Positions 775-56,136 of a DNA stretch of 64,000 nt are shown here, piece after piece (within the stretch, counting starts at the first letter, position 1; each line of letters starts with the position of its first letter). The notes beneath the pieces were generated by a model, which was given only the letters and a program-made list of their open reading frames with translations, was not told the DNA's origin and searched no databases. A program made the position numbers and the translations under genes. The stretch is taken from positions 3,751,001 through 3,815,000 of the forward strand of contig OZ037769.1 of the NCBI GenBank assembly GCA_964035545.1, in the 5' to 3' direction. Source of the stretch: Bugula neritina. Its lineage: Eukaryota > Bryozoa > Gymnolaemata > Cheilostomatida > Bugulidae.

Positions 775-3700
775 TCTGAACACGCTGCCTCTAAGACCTG
801 GGTTATTGTTGGCATCCTATCAACCATCTTCTGCTGCTTTCCCCTGGGACTTGCCGGTACTATTATAGCTCACATGTCTAGGGAAGATGCTGCTAGAGGT
901 GATGCCGGCAATCACAGACGTAGACTGTGTCAGGCTAAAGCTCTCACGGGGACGGCTATTGGAATTGGGTGTTTGGCCCTCATTGCCTTAGCAGTTAGTG
1001 TGAGTAGCAAATTTATCAGTAGGAGTTGAGTATTTGTTATTTCATATAATTACGCTATGATATACAATTAAGGGTGCTTTTGAATTCCCTAAGCGTATCG
1101 AATCCGAAAGCGCCTTTAATGAAACAGATAACCATTATATAGAATAAACAACCACATTTATATTGTATTCAAGTTATTACCCTAGTTGTGTAATAACATT
1201 ATGACAGTTGTTTTCTTTAATAAATACGCAATACTAAAAAATCATGTTAACTTTTCTAACTTATCTTCAGTTTTACATTTACTAGACTGAAAAATGTTCA
1301 CATTTCTTTTGTAGCTTGGACTAATTTTTGGACTACTTCACAACCAGGGAAATGATTATGAGTATGAACCCATTCCTAGTTTTACCTGGACAGGTTAAGA
1401 ATTTAATTACAATGCATTATAAGGCTTCTACAGGTTAATAGCTAAACATAGCAAAATGCTGATTACATTTTAGCTTGCCGAAACATAAAATTTTTAACTT
1501 GAGAACCTACTAATGTCTAAGAATCAATAGAGAAGAATATTTTGTTTATCTTTCTTTACTGTCTGTCTCTCTTTGTGTTTGTCTGTCTGTATTTATGTCT
1601 GTCTGTTGTCTTTATGTCTCAATATTTTGCATGTCATTAGTCCCATATCATGAAACCAGCTCACCAACTAACTTCGCAACCATTGGGCTGATTAAATACA
1701 TGTACGTATATAGATGACAGTGTGGGCCAGTTTCTGTACAATTGTTTCCTAGGTGTTTGTGGTCAAACCTCACTTTTTAAAGGCAGCAATACTTTGTAGA
1801 TAAGGGAATCTACCTAGGTTGCTATGAAGATGATCAGTTTCACAGAGATGTTTCTGGTATTAACACGGAGTTTGAAGACGATAATGATGTTGATAAATGT
1901 GTCTATTACTGTGCATCACATGGTACGTTGACATTTTAAACTTTATAGCAGTCGGCAACCTTTTGCTTTACAACTACATAAATATATACACTAAGTTTAA
2001 TGGTCCAAAAATCTGTTTAAGAGTTAAGTGTTTGCTATTATCGTCATGGTAACCGGCAGTTTATTGTACAAAGACAACAGCTGTTACTATAACACATTAC
2101 ACTATTCTTTAAAATGTTTAATTAGTTTTAAAAAGATTAGTATACATTAATGTACATAAAGTAAAACTTAGGTTTCTGTTTTGATGCAAATAAAACTCAG
2201 TGTTTATGCTAATGAAAATATGTATTTTATATATTGAAATTTGGTTGAATTGCCAATGCTGCTTCACTTACTATATGTAGAGCACGTTGAAAGAATAAAA
2301 GAGTTCTTATATTTAATTTCTTATTTATAACTATGTAACCAGTTTTGACAGCTATAAAAATATCTGATAATATTATTAATAGGTACAAAAATATAATTTT
2401 TAGCTGTTGCATTTGTCAGTTTATTTACAGAAAGTTTTTGGAGATGAGATCAATTGATTTTTAGTAAAAATGTCTATCATATTCTACCAAAGTATATTTT
2501 GTCTAATTTGACTTCCTTTATTGACTTTTTAAATGAATTCTAGTCCCTTGTTATTATGATGTTAGATTTCCACTACAACATGTTTATGCCTGCATAATAA
2601 TACAATGAAAAAATGTTACAACATCTACAATAAACATTGTAATTTGTACACATAACTATTTAGCTATTATATATTTATTAATACAATCAGCACACCTATA
2701 TATAGTGTGATAGTTATATTCATATAACTACATCAATAGAATTATCACATAGACAACATAATTGATACAATAATAATATATAATCTGTGCAATGCATAAC
2801 TATATAAGTATTATATTTATTAGTATAATTGAAATTACAGGCTACAAGTATGCTGGACTACAGGACTACTCTAAATGCTACTGTGGTAACTCGTACGGCA
2901 GCAATGGGAAGGCATCTGAAGACTCCTGTTACGCAACTTGCCCAGGAAATGCGGACGAAATTTGTGGTGGTTACTTGAAAAACTCCCTTTACCGGACTAA
3001 CTTCATCGGTGAATATATGAATCTATAAAACGCATATCTTTCCTTTTCATCTTTTAAAGTATTTATATTTTCAATTCAAAATGAATAATATATACCTTTT
3101 ACGGTGTGAATTAAAGTGATGAAACTTTGCTTCGTGAGATTTTAAAAATGTTCGACATGTGACAAACGTTTTGTAATACTCTAACTATACTGTTTAGATA
3201 AAAAATTTCGCCTGACTAATGTTCTATGTCCTGAAACTATTGTAGGGTGCTTTTTTGATGACGATAAAAGATCTTTGAAGGAATATTCATATGTGATAAC
3301 ATCCGGTGATGAGCTGAAGGATTGTGTAGAAACATGTGGCTATGAAGGTTAGAGCTTGATTGAGCTTGAGTTTGGGAATGGCTTTTGATTCTGCTCTATT
3401 TACCAATAGAAATTTATATTTTTTATTGGCTTTTAAAAAAACACTGTTTAACGAAATTTGTGCTATTGCATAAAGGGACACATAAACCTTTCCCTTATAA
3501 ATTTATACTCAAACTCAAGACTTAACACATTCAAAAGCTATATTAATTGTTTAGGTTATGAATTTGCTGGTTTGCAAGATTCTAACAAGTGTTATTGTGG
3601 ACAAGATCCCAACAGATATGGGGAGGCCCTTGCAACTGAATGTAATACATCGTGTGCAGGAAATCCCGAGTTAACGTGTGGTGGCACCTATAGGAACTCA

Positions 3701-6343
3701 GTCTACAAAACCTCCACCATTGGTCAGTAACTATCAATATGTCAATTTATTTCTTTACAATACTAGTTATGCATAAGATTATTATTTGCCCATTTTTATT
3801 TTTGTGATTTTGAACATTTAAATCATTGAAAGCAAGTTTGTTGTACTTTAAGTTTTTTAAAAATTTAAAACTTGACAAGAAACTTTTGCTAAGCTCTGAA
3901 ACTATATCTGCCTCCAGCAACTTATATATCATTTTAGCTATGAATTAGCTGAAGTTTCTAAAAAATAATAAAACTTATTCAAATTTGTCTTTTTCTGGTA
4001 TTGTTGTAATGTTGACGTGTACCAAGAATTTTTTTATAGAACTCAACTCAACTTTTAATACTTAATTAAATGGCTATTTATTTGTTTAGACACATATTTT
4101 GATTTCTAGCCTACTCAGGGGGACACAACTTAGGTTGTTATACTGATAAGCCTAGTGACAGAGATTTGACTGGGTACTACATATACCTACCAAATAACAA
4201 CAGCGTCAATCACTGTAATGATATCTGCTCTGCCCGTGGTAAAGTACTTATAAACTTTAAACTCCAAATATAGACTTAGTTTTCACAAATACAATGCAAA
4301 TCTTGTAGCTAAACATTCATAATATGCAACAAAACTAACAAACCATATCGTTTACAGGCTTTCAGTATTCCGGTGTCCAAGGCAGCAATGAGTGCTTCTG
4401 CTCAAGAAATTATGGCAGTCACGGCATCGTCCTTGAATCTTACTGTAACATTAGCTGCTCTCTCTATACATGGCAGAAATGTGGAGGAAATGTGAGAAAT
4501 AGGGTGGCTAGAACCAACTACTTGGGTAATGTGCTTCAATATTCTTCCTCGTGTAATCGATACTTACGTATAATAATAAGTGACTTATAAATTACATACT
4601 ATTTCATGTTGAACCAAATGTTTGAAAATGAAATAATTGGAAAAGATGAAATTAAAAGATGCAATTTTAGACTTGACTTTTGTCTTATTAAATTTGAGAT
4701 TTACAGTACATGTGTGGTTAATTTTGTTGTGTCATGTTATTATTAGGTATACGTTTTCAGAAATCAAACTATAAAAACTTTTGAACAAATCAAATGCCTC
4801 TGAATAAATTATTCCTTTACTATTCAACAGTGCAACGGGTCTTGTATAAATTTGACACCAATGATCATAGTCATATAAGCTCAACAGCGTTTATTGAAAA
4901 AAAGCCTTTAGAGACTTTTAGTTACTATATATGCTTATCTGGAATATATTGACATAATTTCTCTTTGCTTTAGTAAACCTATAATGCAGTATATTAATAT
5001 ACAGTATTTCTTTTAGCAAGTTTTCTGTAAACAATTTAATTAATTCCTTTTACAACATTTTTTTAGGTTGCTTTGAAGATAACCTTTCTCACAGAGCTTT
5101 GAATTAATCTGTATTACTGGACAGAGGCTTTCTCCCTGATGACTGCCGGCTAGCTTGTGAAAATCAAGGTAAATTATCAGATGTCTCAGAGTCTGATATT
5201 ACCATAAAGTATGTTCCTGCTCCAAAGTTCAATAAATAGTAGCATGTGCACTAAGTATAGCAGCATGTGCACTAAACAGTAGCATGTTCACTGAATAGTA
5301 GCACGTGCACTAAATGATAGCATGTGCACTAAATAGTAGCATGTGCACTAAATTATATAGCATGTGCACTAAACACTAGCATGTGCACTAAACAGTAGCA
5401 TGTGCACTAAATAGTAGCATGTGCACTAAATAATAGCATGTGCACTAAATAATAGCATGTGCACTAAATATAGCAGCATGTGCACTAAATATAGTAGCAT
5501 GTGCACTAAATAGTAGCATGTGCACTAAATAGTAGCATGTGCACTACACAGTAGCATGTGCACTAAATAGTAGCATGTGCACTAAATGATATAGCATGTG
5601 CACTAAACACTAGCATGTGCACTAAACAGTAGCATGTGCACTAAATAGTAGCATGTGCACTAAATAATAGCATGTGCACTAAATAATAGCATGTGCACTA
5701 AATATAGCAGCATGTGCACTAAATAGTACCATGTGCACTAAATAGCAGTATGTGCACTAAATATAGTAGCATGTGCACTAAATAGTACCATGTGCACTAA
5801 ATGATAGCATGTGCACTAAACAGTAGCATGTGCACTAAATAGTAGCATGTGCACTAAATAGTAGCATGTGCACTAAATAGTGTCATGTGCACTAAATATA
5901 GTGTCATGTGCACTAAACGAAAATGAAAACACTTGGTTTTTATTTATAGCTCATAAAAAGAATTTTCAATGCTCATATATAAAAATGATTTGTGAAATTT
6001 TATTAGCTTTCATGGTAACTTTATTTTTAAATTATAAAAAATTTATAAATTAAATTTTAGATAAGTTCATTAAAAATAGTATTAACATGAAAAAGTTGGC
6101 TTGTTTGGCTTAATAATTAGTATTAACCAATTGGAACACTCTATCTGACATTGTTGTGCAGGTTATTTCTTTGCTGGGATACAGAATGGAGACCAGTGCT
6201 ACTGTGGATATGATGTTAACAGGTACAAACAGATAGATGATGCAAAGTGTGACGTACCCTGTATTGGTGACTCTGACATCATGTGTGGAGGTTATCTTAG
6301 AAACTCTGTATACAAAACATTTATACCTGAAATAGTTTATTAA
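775..6343 (+). CDS. Gene A: CD225/dispanin-WSC fusion protein, 5' partial, in-frame stop in the fourth WSC domain
   Basis: Ten exons are seen: 775-999, 1315-1393, 1800-1922, 2841-3008, 3246-3347, 3555-3722, 4110-4238, 4358-4525, 5067-5168, 6162-6343. The first encodes a CD225 domain (WVIVGILSTIFCCFPLG, then an acidic/basic loop SREDAARGDAG, then a second hydrophobic helix). The second completes that helix and gives a short linker. Exon pairs then form four WSC domains, each starting with a GCY/GCF motif and ending with CGG..N S. Nearly all joins are phase 1 and the exon lengths sum to 482 full codons. TAA at 5105-5107 breaks frame in the first half of WSC4, although the following WSC exon is intact and ends at TAA 6341-6343. 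The product is probably a membrane protein with external WSC repeats. The N-terminal exon lies left of the window. The stop could mean a truncated protein, a young pseudogene or a sequencing error. Confidence 0.8.
1068..1119. repeat. small hairpin repeat, copy 1
   Basis: The left arm TTAAGGGTGCTTTT pairs imperfectly with the right arm GAAAGCGCCTTTAA around a short loop. A longer, better-paired copy is at 26413-26479. Both copies sit in introns of CD225-WSC genes and include GAATCCGAAAGCGCC. It looks like a miniature hairpin element. Confidence 0.55.
5232..5920. repeat. 19-20 bp minisatellite (AGTAGCATGTGCACTAAAT)
   Basis: More than 30 tandem copies of AGTAGCATGTGCACTAAAT with small variants (ATAGCAGC, ATAGTGTC spacers). 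The unit holds the palindrome GTGCAC. It fills the last intron of gene A, directly after the exon that carries the premature stop. Confidence 0.95.
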
Positions 6344-6966: not shown

Positions 6967-6967
<1 letters not shown>

Positions 6968-8705: not shown

Positions 8706-11700
8706 ATGACCTCATCACCAACCACCGCAGCAGACCATAAGATGATGCGGAAACTTCCACCTATTGATAGTCTACCTGCCCAAAATGGTGGGCCTCTTTA
8801 TTCATCTAATGAGCTGACAAATAACAATCAAGATCAAACAGTTGCCATGGCAACAACTTCCTTCTCGGCCCAAGCAGTGCACTCAGAGCCTCTATATGTT
8901 CAAGCAACTTCATGTCAGCCAATATCGAAGGTTTGCCCATTTAATATATGTGTGGCGTGTGGCGTGTGCGTATGCGTGTGTATAAATATATTAAAAGTTT
9001 GATTTGGGAGTCAACATTTTATACAAAACATGGTTTGTTTTCAGGCTGAAGAGTCGGAATCTCTCACTTGGATCTTGGTCGGATCACTTGTGGCTGTAGC
9101 CTGTTTCCTTCCACTTGGTCTCCCAGGTGCTATCTGTGCTTGTGTAGCTAAAGGAGATGCTAAGAAAGGCAATGCTGCTGGTTTTAGAAGAAAGTTACAA
9201 ACAGCTAAGATACTTTCAAGCGCTGCTATTTGTTTTGGAGTAGCTGGCATCATTGCAGCTGGAGCATCGGTATAATTATTTAGCGTACCAAAACTATATC
9301 GTAGTCATAGTGCACTGTTCAATAATTATTTTAGCAATGATGCAGCTATTATATATTTTTGAAAATATCGCAATTATGACAATATTATAAAAAAAAATTC
9401 AAAAATGAAATTATGTTATATATTAATTTATTGATATTAAAACAAAATTCAAGTATGTGAAGCTCCTTAATATTTGAAAAATAACAAAGTTTAGCCAAAC
9501 CTTTATATTTCATAAAACTAAAGAATGTTTATACCTGAATCTACAGCTCGAAATTATTTTCTCACTAGAAGTCATTAAGTCTACCAATAATAAGTTTAGA
9601 GATATTTGGGTGTTGCAACCACAGTCACATTACCATACTCATGTTCTCTACAACAACATTCATCCTTGACCTTTCCAATTATCTGTGTCAGCTGACATAA
9701 TTGTATTGATGCAAGGAATGTTGATGTTATGATGTTTCAGCTAGGATTGATATTTGCCTTTATTGCTAGAATTAACAAGGAACCAACCACTGACTATTAC
9801 TATGAGGAGCCTCTACAGTGGAGAGGTAAGTTGGAGTTTATTTCATTATCATAATAAATTTATATGAAGAAACAGAGCTAATTGCTGACTTTGTTTATTT
9901 TATTTACTAAATGTAAATTTCTTAGAAATTTTAGAAATACTTTCTATAAATTGTGTTGCTTCTATGCAAGTTTTGTAAAAAGAATCTTGTGATTATGCAA
10001 CTTTCATCTTTCAACTTTCTGCATAAGACAAATAAGAAAAACTAATTTTTTTGGCATAAAGATTAGGTTTTGAGTTGAAAGAAATAGAATGACTATATTA
10101 TAGGAGTAGAATGTTGATCCTTTTCGAATGATTTTATTACCTTCTGCTTCTTCTTGCAACTATTAGGAAACCTGCAGGCTGATTGGCCATTCCAAAATTT
10201 TATAATAAAGATTTATTACAATATTCAAGTTATACCTGCTGTCTTAAAACTGCTAGCCATTGAAATAACCAACTATATTCATACAGTGATTCAGCATTTT
10301 TTCATAAATTTTGTCATCCAAAGTTGCATCAATTTCAACATCTTACAAATAGGTAAGGCATTTTGTTAAGGAACAGCTTGACAAAATGACAGTTGAATAC
10401 ATGCAGTATAGTAACTTCCTAAAGCAGCAAAGTGAAATTTATTAGTTATTATTTTAGATGAAGGAATATACATGGGCTGCTATGCAGATAATATGACTGA
10501 CAGAGATATCTCTGGTGTTTATATAAAGTTTGAAGCTGACAATGAGGTTTCAAAATGCACCAATTTCTGTGCTTCAAGAAGTATGTAAAACAAATTTTTG
10601 TATTTCAAATACATCAATTTTAGAGCTTTTTAACATCAATGATATATATAAATAAATATACAATATAATAAATATATATACGATGATAAATATATAATAT
10701 AATAAATATATAATATAAATGAACATATGATATAATGAATATATAATATAATAGATATATAATATAATAAGTATATAATATAATAGATATATAATATAAT
10801 AAGTATATAATATAATAAATATATAACATAACAAATATATAACATAATTAATATATAATATAATGAATATATAATATAAATAAAGATATAATACAATAAA
10901 TATATGACATAATAAATATAATATAACATAATAAATATGTAATATAATAAATATATAATATAATACATATATGATATAACAAACATAAATTATAATGAAT
11001 AATATGATAAATATATAATATAATAAAGATGATGTATATATTTGTATCTGTAGAATACAAGTATGCAGGCTTGCAAGATGCTGTCTACTGTTACTGTGGT
11101 AACTCCTTTGGGAAGTACGGCAAGGTTGATGAGAGTAACTGTACCACTAGTTGCCCCTCAATTGACTACTATAAGTGTGGGGGATATCTTAGTAACTTAG
11201 TCTACAGAACCAACTATTTGGGTGAGTGTTTTAATGAGTCCAGCGTAATTGTAGCTATGTAAATATAAACTCAATCAAAAGAGTAGTTTAATGAAACATA
11301 TTATATATAGTCTTTCATGTTCTATAGTTTCAAAAGTCAAGCAGAAATGTTAGTATTTTTTTGATTTAAATATGAAGTAAAAATTAGCATCGTGTAGAAG
11401 TTACTGTACAATTAAATTTTGTACCTGCATTTAATTTTAAACAATATACGAACATTTACCTAGTATTTAAATGTATATGTGTGCATATCTGTATATGAGT
11501 GTGTATATGTGCATGTGCGTATAATTATATGTGTGTATATGTGTGTATGTATATATATATGTGTGTGTATATATGCGTATATTATATATGTGTGTGAATA
11601 TGCATGTGCATGTGCGTGTGTGTATATACATATATGCATGCATATACATACAAGTATATGCGTGTATATATGTATATATATGCGTGTGTACATACGAGTA

Positions 11701-14700
11701 TATAATACACGTATGCAGTACATGCACTGTATGTATATAATAACTACATAGGTTGTTTCAATGATGATGCAGACAGAGCGTTGACAGGATATTCATACAC
11801 CATGACACTTACTGCATCTCCAAACATTTGCACAGAAACTTGCAATGCTGAGGGTAATCTTTGTATTTTTGAATACACTTCTTATATTTTATTGTAAAAT
11901 AAACCAAAGAAATTAACCAAAAAAAATTAATGTTACCAAAATTTAAAAAGAAATAGTTTATTATGATCAAATTGATTTCAGTTTTTAAGCTATTAAACAC
12001 TGCATAACTTTTTAAAATAATGTTACAATACTTGTTTTTCGTTTTGGAAGAGAAAACCAAAATGCTAATTGATATATAAATATATTATCATTATGAATTA
12101 TTTTAATAAGGTTTTGATTTTGCTGGAATCCAGAACTCTGATGAGTGTTACTGCGGAAACGATTTCAACAGATATGGTGAAGCGCTTACTTCCGAGTGTA
12201 GCAGTCTATGTTTCAACAACTCTGAAGGGCTCACATGTGGCGGAACATATAAAAACTCTGTTTATAAAACACATGTATTCCGTAAGCAATAATCAACGCC
12301 ATTGTGTCTTTCACTGAGCCTAAATTTAACTTATAGAATAATTTTTTAAATTAGATTGAAAATGATGCAAATTAATTATTAGCATTGATGACATATTATA
12401 GCAGTTTTTCTATTACTGCTTCTTTTATAGAAGAATCAATCAATTTATTCCAAGAAAAATTTTGTTTCAGGTTATGGAAGATTCATTCTTCTTAGTTGCT
12501 TTAAAGATGAAGAAAGTGATCGAGATCTTACAGGCTATTTTGTTGACTTGGGATCAGAAAATAGTATCAGCTATTGCAGTGACATTTGTGCTTCACCGGT
12601 ACAGATTTACTTTTTTTTTGCATTTGAAGAAGTCATATGAAATTATTTTATAGTTCAAGTCCTTGTGAAAATGTGTTATATGCTTCTAATTATTTTTTTG
12701 ACCATATATTATGGTCAAAAAATACATAAAAATGTATAATGTTGCTTTGATTATTGTCCTAATGGCATGCACCTCATAATGCCCTTTGTAAGATTTCTAC
12801 CAAATTGATATATAAAAGTGTTTTTATTTAGTAAATAAAGGTATCATAACAGCTTCTTATATCATTATCTTTCATCGTAATTGACTAATTGATATTTTTG
12901 ATTTTACAAACAAAGCAAATTAGATTTATACTAACTTATATTTTTGTGTTGTAAATAATTTTTGGTGTAGTTATAGCAAATGATAAGCTAACATTTAAAA
13001 ACCTACAAGGATTTTTTATATTTTAGATAAAACTATTATATGTGAAAAGAAAATGGTCAATTTGTTACAGTTTTCACTCTTCTTTAGGATTTCAGTATTC
13101 AGCCATGCAGAACGGTGCGGAATGTTACTGCTCCAGGGATTATGGCCGACACGGTAGTGTTCCAATGGATGAGTGCAATGTGAAGTGTCCCAGTAACCAG
13201 TAGAGTGATTGTGGAGGGGTTTTGAGGAATTCAGTCTACAGAACAGCCTACATAGGTATGACTCATACGTCTCAACACTGAAGAGAAACAGGAAACTTTA
13301 CACCATGCTTCAGTTTGGCAAGAGATTACTTACCAGTTATTAATATGTTGCACTTCTTTATACTGACTAATGCCCATTTCAAAATAATGTACATCTTTTC
13401 AGTGTTTTTCAATGAAAGTTGTGTACAGTGCAAAGTTAGCATAGGTATTTCATTGACAGTGTTACTGAAAATTATCATCAACTTTCTGTAAAGGATTTCA
13501 ATAGTTTTTTACACATCCATTTGAGCATTTGTTTAATTTTTTAGGGTGCTTTATGGACGATGCGGACAACAGGGCTCTGAACTATTCAGCTTCATTCAAC
13601 TCTAGTGTTACTTTACTCTCTTGTGCCGTCAAGTGTATGGAGAAAGGTTAGTGTGTTTGCCCAAACCTGGGCCTACTACTTTTAGCCTTATTATATATAA
13701 AATCACTAATGACTTTTTATACTAAAGATGGGATTCATGGAAACATTTTGACATTTTTTCAATTTTAAAATAGCACCCATATAACTCAAAATTTCTGCTA
13801 TAAATTTTCTATGGGCCAATAATTAAATTATTGCTCAGTAATCCATATATGATAAAATTGATGCAGGGTATGCTATTGCATGTTTGTGCTTTTAATTAAG
13901 TGCAAATATACTTATACTTAGTATTCATTTGATTAAATATTACACATAATTTAAGTGATAAGTGAAAAATTTATATTTAATGAGTTGAATTTTGTTGTAA
14001 ATGCTCATAAAATTAAGTAAATGGCAATGTTATTCATTTAAAGGGATACTAGCGGTAGAGCTGCTTTAGAATTTATCTGGTTGTTTTGAGATTGCTATTT
14101 TGAACAACAAAAATAATATGAAAGTGTAAAGGAACAGGAATCAACTACATTTGCAAACTGGAGTAAATATGGTCTACATGTATTGGGTGACAACTCCCTA
14201 ATGTTGTGGAGTTGTCATTCTATAGCATTGGTAAGATTGAATTTGCTGTAATTGAGATCTAAGATACATCTTTATAAATTGTCTTTTACAAAGTGATCCA
14301 AGGGTTGAAAAATGCAAAACGATCAGCGATCCGAAATAGTTTATCCGCAGTGTAAATTAATTTTGCCCCCACTGCAATAGGAATCGAACCCGAGACCTCT
14401 GGCTTGCAAGCAAGTGTGCTAACCATTACACCACGGAGACCACTGGGTAAACTCAACACTACATGCAAAATTTGTTGCTTTCATATATTATAGTTTATAA
14501 TACAGCAAACTGTAACAATTAACTGTCAAACACTATATTTAAAAATTAATACAAGTATTTGCATATTGAAGTAATTGGTTTTTGGAAGAATTGTGATAAA
14601 ATTTATAATTGCCTATCAAATTATTTTGTTACGATATGAAATAATAAAAAATGCTTCGAAAGTACGATAAAATCACTTTATCATTTGTATAGTTGTACTT

Positions 14701-14995
14701 TTTGCTTAAATAATTTATAATGTAAACAAACCTTAACATACTATTTTATGAAGCATTTCAAATAGAGAAGACAACTCTAATAATTCTCATATAAAATTAA
14801 CACCTGTGTACAGGTTATTTCTTTACCGGGATACAAAATGGAGACAAGTGCTACTGTGGATATGATGTTAACAGGTACAGACAGGTGGCTGATGAAGAGT
14901 GTGACATACCCTGTATTGGTGACTCAGAGGTGATGTGTGGAGGCCATCTTAGAAACTCTGTATACAAAACTCATCAAGATCAAATTATTTTATAA
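8706..14995 (+). CDS. Gene B: CD225/dispanin-WSC fusion protein, broken in the third WSC domain
   Basis: Eleven exons: 8706-8930, 9045-9269, 9741-9825, 10458-10580, 11054-11221, 11752-11853, 12111-12281, 12471-12598, 13088-13255, 13545-13646, 14814-14995. ATG 8706 opens a 75-codon Ser/Thr-rich N-terminus without the GYA repeats of C and D. Exon 2 is the CD225 domain (WILVGSLVAVACFLPLG, loop KGDAKKGNAAG, second helix ILSSAAICFGVAGIIAAG), about residues 76-150. WSC1 is about residues 179-275 and WSC2 about 276-366. The eighth exon is 128 nt where phase-1 homologues have 123-129 in multiples of three, so it joins out of frame. The exon total of 1679 is one base short of a multiple of three. The ninth exon also has TAG at 13201-13203. 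Later exons look intact. The gene probably yields a protein with about two and a half WSC domains, or is a recent pseudogene. Confidence 0.78.
10630..11035. repeat. AT-rich tandem array (ATATAATATAATAAAT-like)
   Basis: About 400 bp of imperfect ATATAATATAATAAAT-type units inside the intron that splits WSC1 of gene B. The array stops about 20 bp before the splice acceptor at 11053. The long reverse-strand reading frames here (runs of I, Y and L) come from the repeat. Confidence 0.9.
11470..11745. repeat. TGTATA / TGTGTA purine-pyrimidine alternating tract
   Basis: About 270 bp of alternating TG and TA steps (for example ATATGTGTGTATATATGCGTAT) directly before the exon at 11752 in gene B. It is open in several frames on both strands only because of its composition. 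Such tracts can adopt left-handed helix or hairpin forms. Confidence 0.85.
14365..14441 (-). mobile_element. tRNA-derived SINE head
   Basis: On the reverse strand there is a Pol III A box TGGTGTAATGG and a B box GTTCGATTC at tRNA-like spacing. The T stem is mismatched and the acceptor ends do not pair, so this is not a working tRNA. The 5' leader (GTAGTGTTGAGTTT) is shared with the element at 54549-54620, which marks a repeated family. It lies in the last intron of gene B. Confidence 0.7.
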
Positions 14996-20409: not shown

Positions 20410-23400
20410 ATGACTGAAACAGAAATGAACGAATATGCAGCTATTAAAGACCAGAATAATTATCAGGGTTTATCAGCACCTCAGCCTGTGGGAAACATAC
20501 CAACACATGCATTAAACCCTCAGCCTGGTCAACCCTCTCCAGGTTACCAACAGCAGTTTGTACCCCAACAAGGATATGCCCCTAATATGCAGCCTCCACC
20601 TGGATATGCCCCTCATCCACAACAGCAGCCTGGATATGCCCCTCATCTACAACAGCAGCCTGGATATGCCCCTCAGATGTACATGCCACCTGAATATGCC
20701 CAACACACATACTTCACGAAAAACACAAATGTTCACCAACCAAATAACAACCAATTAGCTTCTATCCCTCAGCCAGTATTTGCCACTCCTAGTTCTGGAG
20801 TAGCACCTGCACAAGCACCTGCTTATAATGGACATGGCACTGGCCAGCAGGTGGTGACACAGACGACTCAGTCTCTTCTAAATGTGAGTTTCTATATATC
20901 TATCCCATAGTTATATATGTATTTTTGTTATTAGATTTGCATATATATAATAAGACAATAATTATTATGAATATTATACAAAAAATGCAGTTATGGCTTG
21001 GAAGTTTCAATATAAGTTGATATCAAATGTGCTCACATGCACAAATATTCTTAGTTTAATGTAAACAATGCTTTACATAATATTATTCTTACTGTATTAG
21101 GGTCTTTAATCGCCTAAAATTATTTAACAACTTAGTTTAGACTTTAGAGTAAGTATAATAATCATATTAAAAATTACAGTATAAGTTAAATAGCATGTTT
21201 TTCTGTAGGTAACAGACACAGGTTCAACATGCTGGATGGTTGTTGGAATTCTGACGGCCATATTGTGCTGCCTGCCACTGGGAATTGCTGGTGCTGTCAT
21301 GGCATTTTTATCTGGTGAAGATGCTAGAGGAGGAAATGCTGCTTCCTACAAGACAAAGATCTGTCAGTCTAAAGCTCTGACACTCACAGGACTAGGAATT
21401 GGGTTGGCGATAATTATAGCTGCAGTAACTGTGGTGGGTAATTGTTGAAATACTTTTTCTAAACAAACAGTATGCATGTGATGCACTATAAAAAGTTTTA
21501 CGGTATAATCAATATATTCCTAAGCAAGATATTCAAAACTGAATCTAAAAACTTAATCAATGCCTTTAAATTGATTAAAAACTAACATAGGTAACTCTAG
21601 TACTTTTTCCAAAAAGCTAAGCTAGTTATTTGAATTGATGACTAATTGCATGATAAGTTTATATAATAGGCTCGCTGCTAAGAAGCCAAAACATGTGTCT
21701 AAAGTTTTCAGCTGAATATAGACACGATTGAATTAGCAAAGAAGACTGTCAAGTTTTATTTTTATAACTATAATAAATGGGTTTCAATACAGGAATAAAA
21801 AATGAATGCATTGCATTGTATACGTTCACTTCAGTATTGTATAATCTCTATTTCTATGCTATATTGTAGTACGTATTGCATATCTGTGTTTATATATATA
21901 TACATGGTATTACTCTACTGTTTTATATCTGTGTATATAACATTAATTGCAGGTCTTATATACAAATGTCTATAGTAATAATATCTAGAATATAACGTGG
22001 GTATATTTTCATGATTGTAATGTATATGTGTTTAGATATAGGTATATAGTAGTCTACACTGCATAAATACTGTATATAATATATACTTATGTCTAAATGA
22101 TCAATTTAAAAGGAAATACTATGTTAAATTTGTTTGGTAAGCTCTCTTTATAATTCATTTTATCTAACTTATTGTATTAATTTTCAAATTTTATGGTTTT
22201 AATTTTTAGGGTTTGGTAGCAATAAACAACGATTACATTAGTTATGATGTCATAACTCCTGAATATTATACTCAACAATGGACAAGTAAGTATTATGCTG
22301 AATAGTAGATAAATGCTCAGTCACTTAATTATAGGTACATAGGATTGTGAAATGATTTAATTAGATGACTTTTGGTGTTTATTGATTCGCATATGATCAA
22401 AAATGAATATATAATATTATCCAATCTGAGTTATTTAATTAAATATTTTATATAAAAATAAATTTATTATCAAAAAGCAGATAAAATTTCATACAAGTAA
22501 AAGTCAAAAATTAAAATGATTATGTCAATTGTTAACGTATAATTTTTTTATTTATCTTATAAAAATATTATATATTTCAGCATTTTTGTTTGGTTAAAAG
22601 ATGAATATTTTCTTTAATCAAACAACGTAAAAGATTACAATAAGTAAAACCAAATAACATACAATACATCTTTGTCGTTACATTATAGCTGAAGCCATTT
22701 ACATGGGATGCTATGAGGATGATATCATATTCCGAGATCTTGATGGAGATTTCTATGACTTTGGAACAGACAACTCCGTCTCAAAGTGTAGCAGTTACTG
22801 CTCTGAAAGAGGTAAAAGAAGTTGCTGTTTAGTTTTAAATTCCGACATTGTTGAATATAAGCCCTCTTCATGTGAGAAGATGAAATCTTCACTTTATGTT
22901 GCTTTTAATAATTTACTATTCTAGATAAAACTTATTCTTAATAATATGAACTAGAATAAATTTACTTCCAGTCAAAAGTAAAATAATTTTCTTTTAAAGT
23001 TACCTATTTTGTTTGACAGAAATTTTGCAAAATGCATCATCAATAAAGAAAAGTTCAAATATGTGCATAGCTACAAATTGTAGCCACAGAAACAAATTAC
23101 CTTCCCTGTCATTATTCCCACAGTTATTTTTATCCTGTAATATGGCAATAGCTTCGTTAGCATATAGCAATTGTTTTGTAAACTTGTATTCATTGTCCAT
23201 CAATTATAGTTGGATTAAACATTGATAAGTGTCTATAAGTTCAATACATTGTATTCTAAATTATATGTAAAAAAGTATTTTTTCAGGTTACAAATATGCA
23301 GGCCTGCAGGAAGGAAACCTGTGCTACTGCGGATACTTTTTTGGCTCAATTTCTCCGTTGGATCAGACTCAATGCGACTCTCGCTGCCCTGCTGATAACA

Positions 23401-26400
23401 GAGAATGTGGAGGGTATCTCATCAACTCTGTGTACAGAACAAACTATCTTGGTGAGTATCTTTAATATATCACTTTCTTGACTTATAATTCTTGTAGTGC
23501 TTAGTACATATGTTGGTTTGAGCTTATAGTTTTAATTCTGGTTTGTATTTGTATTTCAGTAGTATCTAGGGTAAAATAAACCTATCGGCATAAGCTAATG
23601 CTTTGAAGTGATGTGTGTCAGCTTTGTTTAGTTTCTTATGATAGGTCACATGACAGGTTTTGATGTAGCTGAGTAAATTACCAATCTTATAGATTATTAT
23701 AAACTAGTACTTGTAACATATATGTACACATTCTAGTTTAGTATTACTTTTGATTTGTATTTTAAACCCAATCCTAATTATTACCAAGAAATCTGATCAT
23801 ACTAATTGTTATTGGTCAGCACACAATAAAGGTTGGTTACAGAGCTGTTTAAGTTGTTTAATAATTCCTTTTTTCAAATTTATTTGCTTGATTTTTTTCC
23901 AAATACAAGTATATGCTTTATTAAATTCAATAAACTACATATACACATAAATGTAAGCTAAAATATTTTTAACTATTTTAGCAGAAAACTTCCACTAACG
24001 GTGCATAGCGTACTTACAAAAAAATTAAATATGATTGCCAGAGATCTGTCAAAATAGTTTCTGTCATTTGGGCATAATTTTCTGTCATTTGGTTATAATT
24101 TTTACTATATCATGCACAATGATGTCTCCAGAAATTTTGTGCCAACTTAAAATAAAAAAGCATTTGTTTTCCAGCAGGACTGTCAAACTGCTTAGCGCAA
24201 TGACTAAATATTTATATATCACTACGAGAACTATACAGCTTTCTTGTAAACAGCACTTCAGCATTGAAAACTAAGCCAAAGATTATACATTAATTAGCAA
24301 TTTATACACTAATATTATGTAATTGCACAAATTTATTTGCAGGTTGCTTTAAGGACATCAGTTTCGATGTATCTTTAGATTCCCAATACTATTTAGACTA
24401 CTTTGACGCTGTACCACAGGTCTGCACATCAAAGTGTGGTGATAAAGGTAAGTGAAATGCATTATTATTTTCTTTTGGTATACAAAACTATACGTGAAAC
24501 TCGCAATAGTTATCATCAGTTTCAGATTTGGAGCTCAACAAATATTGACAACAATTATAAGAAATGACTCTAAATCGAAATGGAAATTAATTGCAAAGAC
24601 TAATTGATGGAATACTCAAACGACTGAGTAGTGATCAGATAGTTTAGTATTATGCCACATAGTAATGCAGAAACGCTAAAGTATACTTTTTCATTGCACA
24701 TATTATAATGCTATGTTTGAAAACCTGCAAAGGTGGGCATCTGCTTAAAAAGTCTTAAAATAAAAATCACGGCAAAGTTTCAAATTTTCAACACCTTCTC
24801 AATGAAATGTGTTTTAGGATTAAAGTTTGCGGCACTAAGTGGTAGGTACTGCTACTGTAGCAATGACCCAAACAGATATGGTGAAGTTTCCTATGAAGAT
24901 TGTGATGTGAAATGTAGTTCCAACAGTGAACTTCTGTGTGGTGGTAGTAGCGAGAATTCAGTGTTCAAAACTGATGCTAATAGTAAGCCCCTACCTATAT
25001 AATATTCAGGAAATATTGTAGAAAGCTCAGTCTACTTTTAATAGCATATACGATTACATCACACAGCAAAATTTCGATAATATGCCTATATAATAAAACA
25101 TACACCAATATATCAAATGAAAATAACAATATATTTGCTTAAAATCATTTTGCTGATGTGTACAGTTTATTTATAATTGCATTATTATAAAACTATGACG
25201 CTGGCCACAGTTTTGATAAAAGTAATTATTGCTGAATTGAAATATTTAGTTGTTGCAATTATGTTTATTGAGATTTACTTCCTTCAAAACTGACCTAAGA
25301 TAATCAACTTTGCAAGATAAAGAGCCATTGCCGTAAACAAAAGTAAAAATGTCCATCCAGGATTACAGATAATGGAAAACCAGCTACGCATACCGGGCAT
25401 GTTTTACTTCGGAGGCTGAAGTTTTTAAGTACCCTTAGAGTACTATAGTTTTTCAAATTAACCAAGTACACTTTAGGCTTTTGAATAAAGTTAAAAATAA
25501 TTAAAAGCTTCAATATACTAAATAATTATGAAATTCTTTTACCTTATAGCTCTAATCAAACAAACAAAACTAAAACTCTCACATGTATAAACTATTGCTT
25601 TAGGTGATAAAACATATCACTATCTTGGCTGCTACAAAGATTCTACTTTTACAGATGAACTACCAGAGTATATATACTCTTTGGACAACAGCCCCAGTTG
25701 GTGCGCATCTACATGTTCAACTAGAGGTAAGTAAGTCGTGCTACGAGTCATACTTTGGTTGCTAAAAATACTTCGAGAGTTGAAGAGAGTTTTTATTAAA
25801 ACAAAATAGCTGCTGGTATTTACAATTAACAATTTACAGTTGATAGGTAACTATTAAGCTTGACCATATAGAGTAGTTATATTAACCTATGTCTGATAGT
25901 CAGGTTATAGGATGCCATCTTCAACTGTATAATTCTAAATTAGTTGCTGGAAAAATAAACATCATGCACTTTGATAAAAACATGAATTTAAACTAAAGCT
26001 AAATCACAAAATTAAACGTTTAGTTTTTTCAGTGTGCACAAAAGCATGGTTAAATAGTAGTATATATTAGTAGCTAGTTTATTGCAAAATTTTAGTTGTC
26101 ATGGTTTTTAGTTGAATTAGTAAAAAGTTAGCTCAATATATTAATTTAATGAGTTTATTATTACCAGGTTACAGATATGCTGGACTACAATCAGGGACTG
26201 AGTGTTACTGTGGACAGTCTTACGGTTCGTATGGTGAGTCATATGATTGTTACTCAAATTGTCCAGTTGGAAATGAATTCTGTGGAGGACCATCATCCAA
26301 CTCTATCTACAAAACAGACTACTTCGGTAAGAGAACATTTAAAGTTATTCATCTTAGTTTTATTCAACAATTTAAAATTTGAATTAAAGCCATATTTTCA

Positions 26401-27288
26401 AGCTGAAATTTGTTAGGGCGCTTTCAAATTTTCTCAGTGTAGCCCACTGGGCTCATCGATGAATCCGAAAGCGCCCTTAATTGTGAAAATTTGAAAAGTC
26501 TCAACAGAGAAAGCAATTTGAGTTTTAACATAATTTAATGCTAATTATTTGCTCTAATTTATAAAAAAAATTCAAGTATATATTAGAATAGGTTAAATTG
26601 AATTTCAACTGTTTTTAGGCTGTTTTAAAGATGATTTCTCAATTGAGGCCATGAACGTCTCTGTCTTCATGTCAAATTATGAGTTGTCTCCTACCGAATG
26701 TAAGAGGAGATGCAGAGATCAAGGTGAGAGGATATTACATCATGTTATTCATCATGTGCTTAAAGCATTACTATAATATTTTCGATTACATCAAAAAGTA
26801 TAACACCAAAAGCTAATAAGGTCTATTTTAATTCAATACTTATCAACTATAAGTTTGGCCGTAAACGTTTTGCAGTTATATTTTCTGTAACAAGTAAAAT
26901 TTATGAATTGCTGTTAAAGAAATATACTTGAACTGCTGGAATAGGTTCAAATAGTCAGCAACGTGTTTTGCATATAGAGCAAGATGTAATTTATAAGCTC
27001 AAATATTTACATTAAATCACACTTTTGAACAAAGTATTAAAGGCAAGATTTATTACTATAAACAGAATTTATATTATTATAAATAATTATTTTACATTTT
27101 TGGCACACTTTTTTGTAGGTTACTTGTTTGCTGGAATTGGACAACCAAATGGATGTCGTTGCAGTCACGATTTCAACAAATACTATCAGGTTTCGGATTC
27201 GGAGTGTGATGAATTGTGTACTTCAGACTACGAGAGTACATGTGGTGGTTACAGCACACTGGCAGTGTTCGAGACAGGCTTGAGTTAG
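20410..27288 (+). CDS. Gene C: intact CD225/dispanin protein with four WSC domains (629 aa)
   Basis: Eleven exons: 20410-20883, 21209-21433, 22210-22285, 22689-22811, 23287-23451, 24343-24447, 24818-24982, 25604-25726, 26168-26326, 26619-26723, 27119-27288. All have GT-AG ends and the total is 1890 nt. Residues 1-158 are a Pro/Gln-rich disordered tail with repeated GYAP units and PPxY motifs (PPGY, PPEY). Residues 159-233 are CD225: helix MVVGILTAILCCLPLGIAG with a CC pair, loop GEDARGGNAAS, second helix LTLTGLGIGLAIIIAAV. Residues 234-258 are a linker. WSC domains span 259-354, 355-444, 445-538 and 539-629. The protein ends with the last WSC and has no further membrane segment. By analogy with IFITM proteins the tail is cytosolic and the WSC array external. 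WSC domains bind glycans in yeast sensors and occur in Kremen and polycystin-1. The ligand here is unknown. Confidence 0.9.
26413..26479. repeat. small hairpin repeat, copy 2
   Basis: Perfect 13-bp inverted ends TTAGGGCGCTTTC / GAAAGCGCCCTAA-type (right arm 26467-26479) enclose a loop of about 40 bp. It matches copy 1 at 1068-1119 and sits in an intron of gene C between WSC3 and WSC4. It looks like a miniature inverted-repeat element. Confidence 0.6.
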
Positions 27289-33370: not shown

Positions 33371-35016
33371 ATGAAGGTCTTGTATTTGCAAACACTTTGC
33401 ATTTTTGCTTGCATTGCTTCTATCAAAACTGAACGAGGTATGTTCAAGAATTTACTATCTTAATCTTCAATCCTTTTTACAAACTTTGACAGCTAACTTG
33501 TTAACAAATTATTTAAAATCATTGCCTTATTTTGCTATATTTGCTAAATTAAATCATTTGTCTATTCCAGCATATTTCATGCTTAAAGTTACAACTTTGA
33601 TTACATGTAAACTAAGTTCTACAAGCTTATACTTTCATTTTGACAATACTAGTGTTGTTATAATATATTTAATTGTTAATTGTTATAATAATATCACGCT
33701 ATAAGTGTTTTAAAGAAAAAGCTTGGAAACCACAGCTAAAAGATTTAAGAGTGATAATATTTCAGATTAGTGTTGCACAAAATTATAGAAATTTACACGT
33801 TTCCAGTTGAAAGCTAATGCTATACATATGTATAGTATTGTTTTAAGGTTGGCAAACTGAAATTCAAAAGATTTTTCTGTAACACCATTATAGCAATTTG
33901 GCATTTGTTAAACAAATCCGAAGTTGTCAGCAGTATTACACTTGTTTATGTAAGCAGGCTTGCATAGAGTTTAATGAAATTAATTTAAGACTGAAAACTG
34001 CTTATTTTACTTTAAATATAAATGCAAGGAGGGCAGAGGGGAAAAAATAAACACATTTATCTAGCTTGATTCCTTTCCTAAGTTTTAGCATATGATACAA
34101 ACTTGATAGGAAAGAGGCTATACAATATATAGAAGCTTTTTACCAGTTTTGTCGTGAGAAGACAATTCCCTACTTATTTTGAAAAGCTCTTATATATACC
34201 ACATTCTCAGTGTATACATATGAAACACATTATCTAAAAAGAGCAACTTTTTAACTTGCGATTTCATCAGCAAAAGTTGTCACTTGTTTTGAATTTTCTA
34301 AAATGTGAATTATAGTGATTGGATACAGAGGGTGTTATAGAGATGAAAGCAACAGGGATTTACCTTATAAAACTGATTTTACAGACAACTCTGTAAGGAA
34401 ATGTATTAGCCACTGTCAACAAAATGGTAAACAATTGCTTTTAATACTATGATATTTCTTACTCTTGAAGTGTCACTAATCTTAGTTTCTACATATGGTG
34501 CCTAATACTGCTTATATATATAGTACAACTGAGAAAACCTATGGCAGACCTCAACACTGTACAAAACTGTATTAGCTATACTGTCAAACACAAGGTAAAC
34601 AGCTATTACAGTAGTGTGGCCTTGCTCACTCTTGAAGCATCACTAGGATTAGTCTTTATAATAACCTGTTGATTATATTATATAACTGAGAGAGAATATT
34701 TATGGCTTACTTCATATAGTATTCATTTAGGAAGAAAAATTACTTCATAGGCATTTTAAATTATCAGATCTGAAGCTGAATTTAAGTGACAATTTTTTTT
34801 AATTTTGTAGGCTATGACTATGCAGGTATGCAAAGCTCTAATCAATGTTTTTGTGGAAACCGATATGGCAGATATGGAAGGCTTGATGAGGCAGAGTGCA
34901 ATAGATCATGCAGGGGTGATTATAGTAGTGAGATATGTGGGGGTCATTATGCTAATTCTGTGTACGTTGTGCCTAAATGTTCATGCATTGGGTCTCAAAA
35001 TATTAATGAAAATTAA
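33371..35016 (+). CDS. Secreted single-WSC protein 1 (127 aa)
   Basis: Three exons, 33371-33437, 34316-34426 and 34811-35016, with phase-1 joins. Exon 1 encodes a signal peptide beginning [10 protein letters not shown], with probable cleavage before KTERG. Exons 2 and 3 make one WSC domain: GCYRDESNRDLPY..., two C's in KCISHC, CFCG, ECNRSC, ICGG, giving the usual eight cysteines. The tail adds KCSC and is longer than in the other three copies (68 codons in exon 3 against 61), because the stop found there is replaced by readthrough to INEN. Probably a small secreted glycan-binding protein. The function is unknown. Confidence 0.85.
34551..34594 (+). pseudogene. partial duplicate of WSC exon 2
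   Basis: About 44 bp match the 3' end of exon 2 of the array genes (AACACTGTA..AACTGTATTAGC, then a GTAAAC donor). It sits in the second intron of gene 1 and has lost the start of the exon and the second conserved cysteine spacing. Confidence 0.55.
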
Positions 35017-49256: not shown

Positions 49257-51664
49257 CTAACTCAAGCCTGTCTCAAACACTGCCAGTGTGCTGTAACCAC
49301 CACATGTACTCTCGTAGTCTGAAGTACACAATTCATCACACTCAGAATCTGATACTTGATAGTATCTGTTAAAATCGTGACTGCAATAACATCCATTTGG
49401 TTGTCCAATTCCAGCAAATAGGTAGCCTACAATAATAAATGTGATTTATAGTTATCAGTCAATAAAATAGTGCAAATATATTATCAGGCTTTGAGTTAAA
49501 TTTAATATTATTTATTTTATTCTTTTTGTGAGTTACAATTCATATTCATTTGACATTAAAGAGGCATATAATCAACCTCATATGTTCTCATGTTGTGCCA
49601 AGTTGCTAAGCTTTAATTTATTTATATAAGACAATAAATGCAATACATATAACACCAGATATAACAAATTGCTTGTTTAAAAGCAAATAAATTTTGCAAA
49701 ACAGTGAATAATTGTGCTTTATAAGTGATATTCTTTTTTAAAATTGTTGCAAAAACTAAATCTTATTCTGACTAATTTATCATAAATTCAGCAGATTGTT
49801 AGATTGTCATATTCTCTCACCTTCATCTTTACATTCACTCTTACACAGTGTAGGAGTCAAGTCATAATCTGAGATGTAAATAGAGACATTCATGGCTCTG
49901 TTTGAAAAATAATCTTGATAGCAGCCTAAAAATACAGTTGGAATCTAAGTTTAGTCATCAGCTTACACTTTATAAGCAGTATGTCAAAATATTTATTTGT
50001 TTTTATGAAAGTGTTTAAATCATTACCATTAAAAACATAATATTATACTTGGTGTTCGATTGTAAGCTGAAAATTTGATATATGGCATGGCTTTAAGAAT
50101 AATCGTGAATGTTTTCTCACCCAAATAGTCTGTTTTGTAGATAGAGTTGGATAAAAATCCTCCACAGTTCTCATTCCCAACTGGACAATCAAGGTTACAA
50201 AAATACGATTCACCATATGAACCGTAAGACTGTCCACAGTGACATTCAGTCTCTGATTGTAGTCCAGCATACCTGTAACCTAACAATTGTAAACTTATTA
50301 AATTATTCCTGCACAAAAGTTTTGTGTAATGTTTTGGCTCAATTTGATTAAAAAAACAAAACTGAGCAGGCATAGTTGTTAGTTTTTACACACTAAAGTA
50401 GAGCCCGAAAATTTATATGCCGCTTTTATAATTTCAATCTGGCCTATTTGCTACTTTTAGAAATCTTCAGTTATAGCTAAAAAAAAGAGTACTTCATGAA
50501 TAATCAGCAACTGTTTGGTCAACTAGAGAGCTGTATTTCACACAAGGCAATAGTAGACTAAAAACACAGCTGTAATTATAATATGTTTAGAAATTAAAAG
50601 TCTTGGAGGTATACTCACACTGACTAAAAATAAAAATTAACAATTTTTTTTTGATTTGTCAGATTCAAATTAGTTTAGTTACAATGGGTTGATATTTCAC
50701 ATTACTTTTACTTTTACGTTATGTAATCATGCCTAAAATTTAACTTTTCAATTGTTTCCAACTCCCAGCTTTTCTAGCAATTATATTGAGACTCGTATAG
50801 CAATGTTTTGCCTACCTTTGTTTGAACACGTAGAAACACACTGGCTGGGGTTGTTGTCCCAAAAGTATGTTAACACTGGTAGGTCATTTGTCCAAAGAGA
50901 ATCTTGGTAGCAGCCAAGATAGTGATACTTCTGGTCTTCTACAGCATTGTTTTATTATACATAAAAGGTTTCACACAAATATATGTTCATCAAAATGTGT
51001 ATATTATTTTTCAAACCTTGATAGTACAAAATTAAAACTACCATTTTTGAAGTAAAACTAGAAGCAAAAGAAAGTTATATTTATTTAATAATCACTGGCA
51101 AATTAGTAAAACGAAATTAAAAAATATCAATTTTAATTGCATTTTGATTTTAATAATCAGCTTAAAACATTCTCAATAAATCAGACCTAATAATAGTATA
51201 TTGAAAGTCTTTAAACTTAGACTTAAAATTATTTAAACCAGAGCCTATAATTGAGCTCATTCATTTGAATATTATTATAAATTGACACTTTTTATTCACC
51301 GCTATACTACAGCACCTATACAAGTATAGCTTTAGATTAAATAGATAAAAGCAACCTCAGGTTTTCAAATGATAGTAGAAAACTGTTGGTTTATAAATAT
51401 ACATTAGTATATTTTGATTTTACTTCAACTGCATTCAGGTAATGTTTAAAAATAGAATTTGACATCTGCATAGATCATCAAATGTCTTTTTTAAACAACA
51501 TTTAAAAGTTATAGAGTTAAAAGATAGGATATTTTATGCTTTCAATTTAATATGCTTTAGTAAAACTATAAGTTTTACTATTGCGAAGGTGTGGGCCATG
51601 GTACTCTGTTCTGTGCTGATGAGGGGACAAATCCCGAAACAGCTGCTGTCCACAGATTGAGATA

Positions 51665-51724
<60 letters not shown>

Positions 51725-54700: not shown

Positions 54701-56136
54701 GTTAAGTCACTCCCACTACCGACACCAAATATGATTACCACAACCTGTAAAGTTCAACAAAATATATATAAAACTTTTGCAGTTCGAGCTAAATAAATAT
54801 ACATAAATTACTAGACTTATAGAACTATCTAGGAAGCTATTTTAGTCCAATTTTTGCAAATTAAATATCATATATAATAACTAAGTAGCCTAATACAATA
54901 GACATAAGTATATATAATACTTTAGTAATGTCATAGACATATAGGTATATAATATATACGTACACGTAGGTAAACAATATATTATACTGAAGTAATACCA
55001 TAGACATAAGTATGGGGTGCTAAAATAATATCATTTTCAGAAATTTGAATTTTTAGACTGAATTACATTTTCCAATGCATCTCGTGCATATTCTTGCAAT
55101 AATACTGTACATACACAGAGAATATTTGAACAGCTACCTACCACAGTTACTGCAGCTATAATTATCAACAACCCAATTCCTAGTCCTGTGAGTGAGAGAG
55201 ATTTAGACTGGCAGATCCTTGTCTTGTGGGCAGCAGCATTTCCTCGTCTAGCATCTTCACCAGATAAATATGCCATGACAGCACCAGCAATTCCCAGTGG
55301 CAGGCAAAGTATGGCTGTCAGAATTCCAACAACCATCCAGCATGTTGAACCTGTGTCTGTTACCTACAGATAAACATGGTATTTAATTTATACTTTAATT
55401 TTTAATATGATGATTACTTACATTAAACTAAGTTGTTAAGTAATTTTTAATAAAAAAAAAACTGTGATGCAGTAAAACTTGTGAAATACTTTTTTTGCTT
55501 TAAATTAAGAATATTCTTGTAAGCTCAATCTAATAATAATTAGCTTTAACTTTAGCTACAACTTATATTGAGCGCTTCTACATTACCTGTATTTTTTATT
55601 TATTTACACTGTTACACTATATTTATAGAAATACATATATGCAAAAAAATCATACATGAGCTCATGACTGAATGAGGCTGAGTTACCTGTGTCACCACCT
55701 GCTGGCCAGTGCCATGTCCATAAGCAGGTGCTTGTCCAGGTGCTACTCCAGAACTAGGAGTGGCAAATACTGGCTGAGTGGCAGGTGCTACTTTATTATT
55801 ACTTAGACCATTTTGTGAGAAATGGCCATGGTGAGCATATCCAGGTGGTGGCTGTGTTTGAGGGGCATATCCAGGTGGTGGCTGTGTTTGAGAGGCATAT
55901 CCATGCGGTGGTGGCTGTGTTTGAGAGGCATATCCAGGTGGAGGGGCATTCCCTTGTTGGGGTACAAACTGCTGTTGGTAACCTGGAGAGGGTTGACCAG
56001 GCTGAGGGTTTAAAAGATGTGTTGGTGCATTTCCCACAGGCTGTGCCTCAACTGGCTGTGGTGCTGGAACACACTGCTCGTTACCATAATTCTGGACTCC
56101 ATTATTAACATAATCTTTCATTTCCATTTCTGCCAT
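49257..56136 (-). CDS. Gene D: intact CD225/dispanin protein with four WSC domains (620 aa)
   Basis: Exons in transcript order: 56136-55687, 55363-55142, 54744-54672, 54278-54156, 53735-53571, 52703-52596, 51997-51833, 50938-50816, 50279-50121, 49925-49821, 49426-49257, total 1863 nt. Exon number, phases and most lengths equal gene C, its inverted paralog. Residues 1-150 are Pro/Gln-rich with three PPGY motifs in GYAP/GYAS repeats. Residues 151-224 are CD225, one codon shorter than in C because the CC pair of the first helix is a single Cys (ILCLPLG). WSC domains are at 249-344, 345-435, 436-529 and 530-620. All first-half exons start GC[YF] and second-half exons hold YCG/HCG and CGG. The acceptor 18 bp before the ATG implies a noncoding first exon ending at 56786. 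Introns carry two SINE heads and a MITE. Confidence 0.9.
51661..51722. repeat. (AT)n microsatellite
   Basis: About 60 bp AT run inside the intron of gene D between WSC2 and WSC3. Confidence 0.93.
52499..52570 (+). mobile_element. tRNA-derived SINE head
   Basis: A box TGGTGTAATGG at 52506-52516 and B-box-like GTTTGAATC. The anticodon arm GCATGCATGCAAGC cannot form a normal 7-base loop, so it is not a working tRNA. It lies 25 bp from the splice donor of gene D exon 6, antisense to the gene. Confidence 0.65.
54549..54620 (-). mobile_element. tRNA-derived SINE head
   Basis: Reverse-strand A box TGGTGTAATGG and B-box-like GTTTGATTC. It shares its leader (GTAGTGTTGAGTTTGCC) and the ACTTGCTTGCAAGCCAGAGG core with the element at 14365-14441. 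It lies in the intron between CD225 and WSC1 of gene D, in sense orientation. Confidence 0.7.

Follow-up and report, generated by a model that had tools for sequence, protein, structure and literature searches.

Two genes of the bryozoan Bugula neritina, here called C and D, each carry one CD225 domain and four WSC domains in a single spliced open frame, and the same order recurs in genes around them. The observation, first made for C and D in a preliminary description of this DNA, is confirmed and is larger than was first noted. The window, meaning the whole 64-kb stretch that was analysed, is C5:3751001-3815000; the genome assembly totals 215,847,546 bases over 295 contigs. Gene C, on the forward strand, runs from an ATG at 20410 to a stop at 27288, and comprises 11 exons with an open frame of 629 aa and GT-AG boundaries at all 10 introns; the exon junctions proposed earlier, 21433/22210 and 22285/22689, are those of this model. 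Gene D, on the reverse strand (56136-49257), has the same 11-exon plan and an open frame of 626 aa, with a weak exon-1 donor (GTCATG). The coordinates 20410 to 27288, originally offered for both genes, are right for gene C and not for gene D. The exon limits of both genes were set by eye, and are collected in Table 1. In each gene a Pro/Gln-rich N-terminus with PPxY motifs precedes one CD225 exon, a linker exon and the four WSC domains; the single spliced frame with CD225 and four WSC domains was thus described correctly, while the Pro-rich part that had been called a tail is the N-terminus. In gene D, the second hydrophobic helix continues from exon 2 into exon 3 (...IIIAAVTV/VVVIIFGVG...). 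Since the same exon order is found in seven fully open models, we consider it to be more than chance.

Table 1. Positions of the CD225-WSC genes and of the stand-alone WSC genes within the 64-kb window.
Feature	Position	Strand	Details
Gene A	775..6343	+	CD225 exon 775-999 (37.5 bits); WSC halves 1800-6343
Gene B	9045..14995	+	CD225 exon 9045-9269 (27.1 bits); linker candidate 9741-9825; WSC halves 10458-14995
Gene C exon 1	20410..20883	+	Pro/Gln-rich N-terminus; PPGY and PPEY; phase 0-0
Gene C exon 2	21209..21433	+	Whole CD225 domain; phase 0-0; Pfam CD225 24.6 bits on exon
Gene C exon 3	22210..22285	+	Linker, with the last part of hydrophobic helix 2 followed by acidic residues; phase 0-1
Gene C exons 4-5, WSC1	22689..23451	+	22689-22811, 23287-23451; phase 1-1
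Gene C exons 6-7, WSC2	24343..24982	+	24343-24447, 24818-24982
Gene C exons 8-9, WSC3	25604..26326	+	25604-25726, 26168-26326
Gene C exons 10-11, WSC4 with stop codon	26619..27288	+	26619-26723, 27119-27288
Gene D exon 1	55669..56136	-	Pro/Gln-rich N-terminus; three PPGY; weak donor
Gene D CD225 exon	55142..55363	-	Pfam CD225 22.9 bits on exon
Gene D linker exon	54672..54744	-	
Gene D WSC1-WSC4, eight exons	49257..54278	-	54156-54278, 53571-53735, 52596-52703, 51833-51997, 50816-50938, 50121-50279, 49821-49925, 49257-49426
Gene E, 3' part (WSC3-WSC4)	62366..64000	-	Remainder beyond window end
Stand-alone single-WSC gene (control)	33371..34965	+	Signal-peptide-type exon
Further stand-alone WSC genes of the same kind	36450-37923, 39833-40972, 42205-43631		

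The Pfam CD225 profile scored 18.6 bits on the full gene C protein and 24.6 bits on the CD225 exon alone, both below the curated cut-off of 27.1, and among the relatives the exon scores were under the cut-off in D (22.9), at the cut-off in B (27.1) and over it in A (37.5); the CD225 call in gene C rests partly on the paralogues. A CD225 match at E<=0.01 was obtained for all 13 aligned family exons. The Pfam CD225 match covers profile positions 6-67 of 68, and hydropathy in the seven open models gave two hydrophobic segments flanking a basic loop. The Pfam WSC profile (PF01822) matched the spliced gene C protein over its cut-off, with 176.7 bits in 4 stretches, and also matched each of the seven members of alignment A1. 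When the profile of A1 was compared with PDB sequences, matches were found to Kremen-1 (best E 1.1e-10), to 7pz2 (3.2e-7), which we take to be Wsc1, and to 9n3u (7.3e-5). There are 8 Cys per WSC domain: beyond helix 2, genes C, D and E encode 32 Cys, the two-WSC models have 16 and the one-WSC model has 8. Such Cys-rich WSC parts would suit an oxidising compartment.

Within the window, A, B and E share the order found in C and D, and A and B carry stops. The stop in gene A falls within the first half of WSC4 (5069-5167), and neither a linker nor the first half of WSC2 was found for this gene. A candidate exon 1 for gene A lies upstream of the window. In gene B, WSC3 is interrupted in its second half by a stop, with a phase break ahead of it, and exon 1 is tentative. 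Gene E, completed with neighbouring sequence, gave an open model of 699 aa with four WSC domains and a poor acceptor ahead of CD225. Over 254 kb (C5:3601001-3855000), our own exon models placed 19 CD225 exons. For 16 of them, WSC halves come next on that strand, ahead of any further CD225 exon, as called with E<0.05 and gaps <6.5 kb; by this call no WSC follows the CD225 exons at 3632531, 3704978 and 3622459, the last of which has a single weak half (E 0.6). Full models were made for nine of the 19 (A, B, C, D, E, g3714, g3722, g3734 and g3699), and all except A and B are fully open, with four WSC domains in C, D and E, two in g3714, g3722 and g3734, and one in g3699. The phases in these seven models (exon 1, 0-0, CD225 exon, 0-0, and linker, 0-1, in 7/7; internal WSC exons, 1-1, in 31/31) agree in a way that is partly built in, because in the five other models exon boundaries were sought under the requirement that they have the gene C phases, so that the count means that fitting sites exist and is no independent agreement. 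When the genome was searched with the CD225 exon of gene C, 12 of the 21 matches fell within this cluster; 2 more lie at C5:260-270 kb, and the remaining 7 at C4:17.28-17.31 Mb. At the second C5 locus, 3.3 Mb away, two CD225 exons are followed by WSC halves (these are not full models), and no WSC was seen beside the C4 CD225 genes among the matches listed, the WSC matches on C4 lying near 10.1 and 23.06-23.12 Mb.

The dN/dS was taken for pairs of paralogues. Values for WSC were 0.27-0.34 in C/D/E pairs and 0.33-0.56 in g3714/g3722/g3734 pairs, and those for the CD225 exon were 0.47-0.53 in two of the g37xx pairs and undefined in the third. The CD225 exon gave 0.65-1.02 in C/D/E pairs, with few changes (4-7 synonymous), and these three genes therefore give no demonstrated constraint on it. 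There was no overall sign of diversifying selection in the dN/dS of the C/D/E and g37xx pairs. The dS values were uneven by exon (WSC1a, 0.10 in C/E vs 0.69 in C/D; WSC4a, 0.11 in D/E; CD225, 0.07-0.13 in C/D/E), a pattern that fits gene conversion or exon exchange between paralogues.

The loop between the helices in C, D and E contains 4-6 K+R and 2 D+E, and the 25 residues after helix 2 contain no K+R and 4-6 D+E, as would be expected for a cytosolic loop with the WSC domains outside; the charge pattern is less clear in the g37xx models and g3699, where helix 2 is not followed by acidic sequence. Passages in the literature give several arrangements for CD225 proteins: a newer IFITM3 model with an intramembrane segment, in which the N-terminus and the loop are cytosolic and the C-terminus is luminal or outside (PMC7665892), a set of three competing IFITM3 topologies, one of which has both ends cytosolic (PMC4820770), and a dispanin scheme with both ends outside (PMC3282796). 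Two of three CD225 topologies would place the WSC array outside the cell or in a lumen. In the N-terminal part, 18 candidate first exons, read to the next stop and thus partly past the donor, contained 33 PPxY motifs, compared with a mean of 4.05 and a maximum of 10 in 1000 composition shuffles; at least one motif was present in 16 of the 18, with none in A and 3687264, and B was not scored. When the count ends at the donor, 1-5 PPxY remain in every one of the seven models. The PPxY of IFITM3 is described as binding NEDD4 in a passage of PMC4532365, and PMC9252488 calls the WSC proteins of a fungus lectins that bind beta-glucan.

In the mechanism that we propose, the N-terminus would face the cytosol, where PPxY could bring in proteins with WW domains, for example ubiquitin ligases of the NEDD4 type, that set turnover and endocytosis, the CD225 hairpin would anchor and perhaps cluster the protein, and the disulphide-rich WSC array, outside the cell or in a vesicle lumen, would bind polysaccharide of microbial, algal or self origin. 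From the Cys content, the loop charge, the IFITM3 topology, the binding of NEDD4 by PPxY and the beta-glucan binding of fungal WSC proteins, we infer a putative glycan receptor, which would be a type II-like membrane protein regulated through PPxY; its glycan binding is proposed by analogy with the fungal proteins. The best explanation overall, to which we give about an even chance when its two parts are taken jointly, is that the intact genes C, D and E belong with the flanking cluster and their damaged relatives, A and B, to one family of fused membrane proteins, whose most likely work would be glycan recognition or uptake, at the surface or in endosomes. The family may make cell-surface or vesicle receptors, and would be a candidate recognition-receptor family in Bryozoa, a phylum whose immunity is, to our knowledge, little studied. 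CD225 proteins, IFITM3 and PRRT2 among them, are familiar as short membrane factors of antiviral defence and vesicle fusion, and a lectin-type array on such an anchor would also be a natural experiment on the function of the CD225 hairpin.

A real fusion might instead be structural or adhesive, with WSC domains that hold glycans of the bryozoan's own cuticle or matrix, CD225 acting as a mere anchor. Bryozoans have a secreted body wall, the WSC dN/dS of 0.27-0.34 in C/D/E suggests constraint over an arms race, and paralogues exist with 1, 2 and 4 WSC domains, all in keeping with such a role; repeated PPxY would be needless for anchoring alone, and we regard the structural role as unlikely, although it is the likeliest of the alternatives. 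Somewhat more doubtful is a fusion protein that works within vesicles or along the secretory pathway, where it would take part in trafficking much like PRRT2 and sense luminal glycan cargo. Passages of PMC7665892 state that PRRT2 regulates neurotransmitter release and that IFITM3 acts on membrane fusion, which would suit this role, and what speaks against it is the distribution of YxxPhi, which is present within the N-terminal 240 residues of four of the six models scanned (C and the three g37xx) and absent from D and E. The family could also be read as lineage-specific, lectin-guided restriction factors, in which WSC would bind glycans of microbes or viruses and so bring a membrane-stiffening CD225 hairpin to the contact site, while the tandem, exon-swapping cluster would vary the range of ligands. 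We hold this reading to be improbable.

CD225 and WSC very likely form a single gene. Using fixed criteria, a signal-peptide-type exon with a phase-1 donor was sought in the gap between CD225 and WSC1, and none was found in C, D, E, g3714, g3722 and g3734, six of the seven open models, whereas all four stand-alone WSC genes of the window (at 34.3, 37.5, 40.5 and 43.2 kb) have such an exon before their WSC exons; on this comparison a reading as separate genes was rejected. The g3699 gap contains one signal-peptide-like exon candidate, which overlaps the top-ranked linker candidate (3700533-3700632), and the g3699 model uses the second-ranked linker, which by eye resembles that of the public model P0021 (...TSTPGYSGTLP... 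/ ...TSTHGYPGTLP...). A looser scan detected hydrophobic starts in the gap, one in C and two in D, that were removed by the stricter criteria, and the start beside WSC1 in gene D is out of frame with WSC1 (offset 49 bases). Linker candidates of phase 0-1 in the gap are alike within C/D/E, within 3639/3647/3655 and within 3714/3722/3734, and no trustworthy candidate was found for A, 3687839 or H1. AATAAA occurs 18 times in the 7256 bases of the junction introns on either side of the linker and 40 times in 15732 bases of later introns, an equal density that decides nothing between one gene and two.

Public data also contain the fusion. Among proteins, gene C is best matched by one from Bugula neritina, and five public models from this species, all of them predictions, have both CD225 and WSC (P0001, P0003, P0020, P0021 and P0022), with CD225 detected at E 4.1e-21 to 1.4e-37 by a model from alignment A3, in which none of the five was included. 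Their precomputed Pfam annotation is WSC only, and three are named LIPI and two hypothetical; in these public models the fusion is already present with its CD225 unmarked. Despite the LIPI naming, a Pfam scan of P0001 within alignment A1 detected no lipase domain, and NCBIfam gave no match on P0001 and P0021. The five lie on contigs of 23.6-187 kb, which indicates another assembly, and gene D is 88% identical to P0001 over 187 residues. The order in P0021 is N-terminus, CD225, linker and WSC; its structure prediction, from a five-row alignment, had a mean pLDDT of 35.4 and was set aside. That two neighbouring genes, one for a short CD225 protein and the other for a secreted protein with WSC, were duplicated in tandem, and that the joined frame is an accident or occasional read-through, would accord with the g3699 exon candidate and with a first WSC half that is skipped in P0001 or misframed in P0020, yet is highly improbable given the other six gaps set against the stand-alone genes, the likeness of linkers within three paralogue groups (a fitting phase being required in that search) and the reading of P0021 through a matching linker.

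Using a local CD225 model, CD225 was detected in five of 35 retrieved proteins, each from Bugula neritina, and the fusion appeared in none of the proteins from other species. This negative is weak, as candidates had to share exact words and, in two of the searches, the best 7997 and 7993 by shared words were scored. A metagenome protein, P0023, is alike in the N-terminal exon only. The pairing of CD225 with a WSC domain is not named in the open-licence papers searched, nor is that of a WSC domain with interferon-induced transmembrane; the preliminary description, which knew of no CD225-WSC architecture, agrees with those papers and is qualified by the five public models. For another bryozoan, Fredericella sultana, a passage of PMC7460649 lists a CD225/dispanin gene whose level is 2.18-fold down when the zooids are infected.

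The Bugula proteins resemble the dispanin/IFITM group (IFITM1-3, PRRT2, TMEM233 and others; PF04505) in having two hydrophobic segments with a basic loop, a CD225 match and a long N-terminus, and, like IFITM3, they have an N-terminal PPxY. One loop Gly is invariant in all 13 aligned CD225 exons, and presumably corresponds to the G95 site of IFITM3. Unlike IFITM3 (G91/G95), there is no loop GxxxG, with Gly at -4 from the invariant Gly in 0 of 13, and a passage of PMC7665892 describes the motif as also missing from human IFITM5 and IFITM10. In the account of dispanins given in PMC3282796, the C-terminus is shorter than 10 residues and a conserved splice site lies in the loop between the two helices; in contrast, 396 residues follow the CD225 exon in C and D (138 to 396 across the seven models), and both helices are in one exon, without a loop splice site, in all seven. 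In this genome, 8 of 33 CD225 matches end at profile position 38-41, which in our own reading is as a split form would. Because the short C-terminus, the loop splice site and GxxxG are all lacking, the predicted proteins are filed as CD225-domain proteins of a new architecture, and not as IFITM proteins or standard dispanins; the label IFITM-like, used in the preliminary description, holds for the CD225 domain and not for detailed membership, given the lack of the loop splice site and GxxxG. The presence of WSC domains further separates the Bugula family from dispanins and IFITM proteins. Among WSC proteins, the animal proteins WSCD1/2 combine a type II topology with a pair of WSC domains and a sulfotransferase domain, and fungal Wsc1 sensors and animal Kremen-1 are type I with a signal peptide; unlike Wsc1 and Kremen-1, the anchor in the Bugula family would be an N-terminal CD225 hairpin.

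In-frame stops were found in WSC exons of genes A and B (window 1-15000), two members of the CD225-WSC fusion family, with the stop located in the fourth WSC domain in gene A, and in the third, accompanied by a phase break, in gene B. These stops may mean that the two copies are decaying or that the genes have alternative ends, or they may reflect errors in the assembly. In another family member, gene D, a tRNA match sits within intron 3.

The window also contains WSC genes without CD225, four single-domain genes that are alike and arranged in tandem. All four carry a signal-peptide-type exon (11 residues, L or F, then 10 residues), and their products are probably small secreted WSC proteins.

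Features in the window and elsewhere in the B. neritina genome
Feature	Location	Strand	Detail
Long reading frame	46584-47336	+
Long reading frame	59050-59763	-
Open frame	17488-18621	+	377 codons
Tandem array	57964-59029		units 36/75/111 bases
Tandem array	5233-5917		units 19/97 bases
Single-WSC genes	33371-43631	+	n=4
tRNA match	54549-54619	-	Rfam 42.7 bits
CD225 exons	C4:17284410-17308519	both	n=7, tandem
Large WSC cluster	C4:23.06-23.12 Mb
Large WSC cluster	C3:15.15-15.90 Mb

The two long reading frames are mutually related and, together with similar pieces near 30.3-31.8 kb, constitute a dispersed repeat that may be a mobile element. A Pfam search with the 377-codon frame gave no match, and both tandem arrays are long. 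Elsewhere, no WSC domain lies near the seven CD225 exons among the matches listed for the genome, which contains further large WSC clusters on two contigs.
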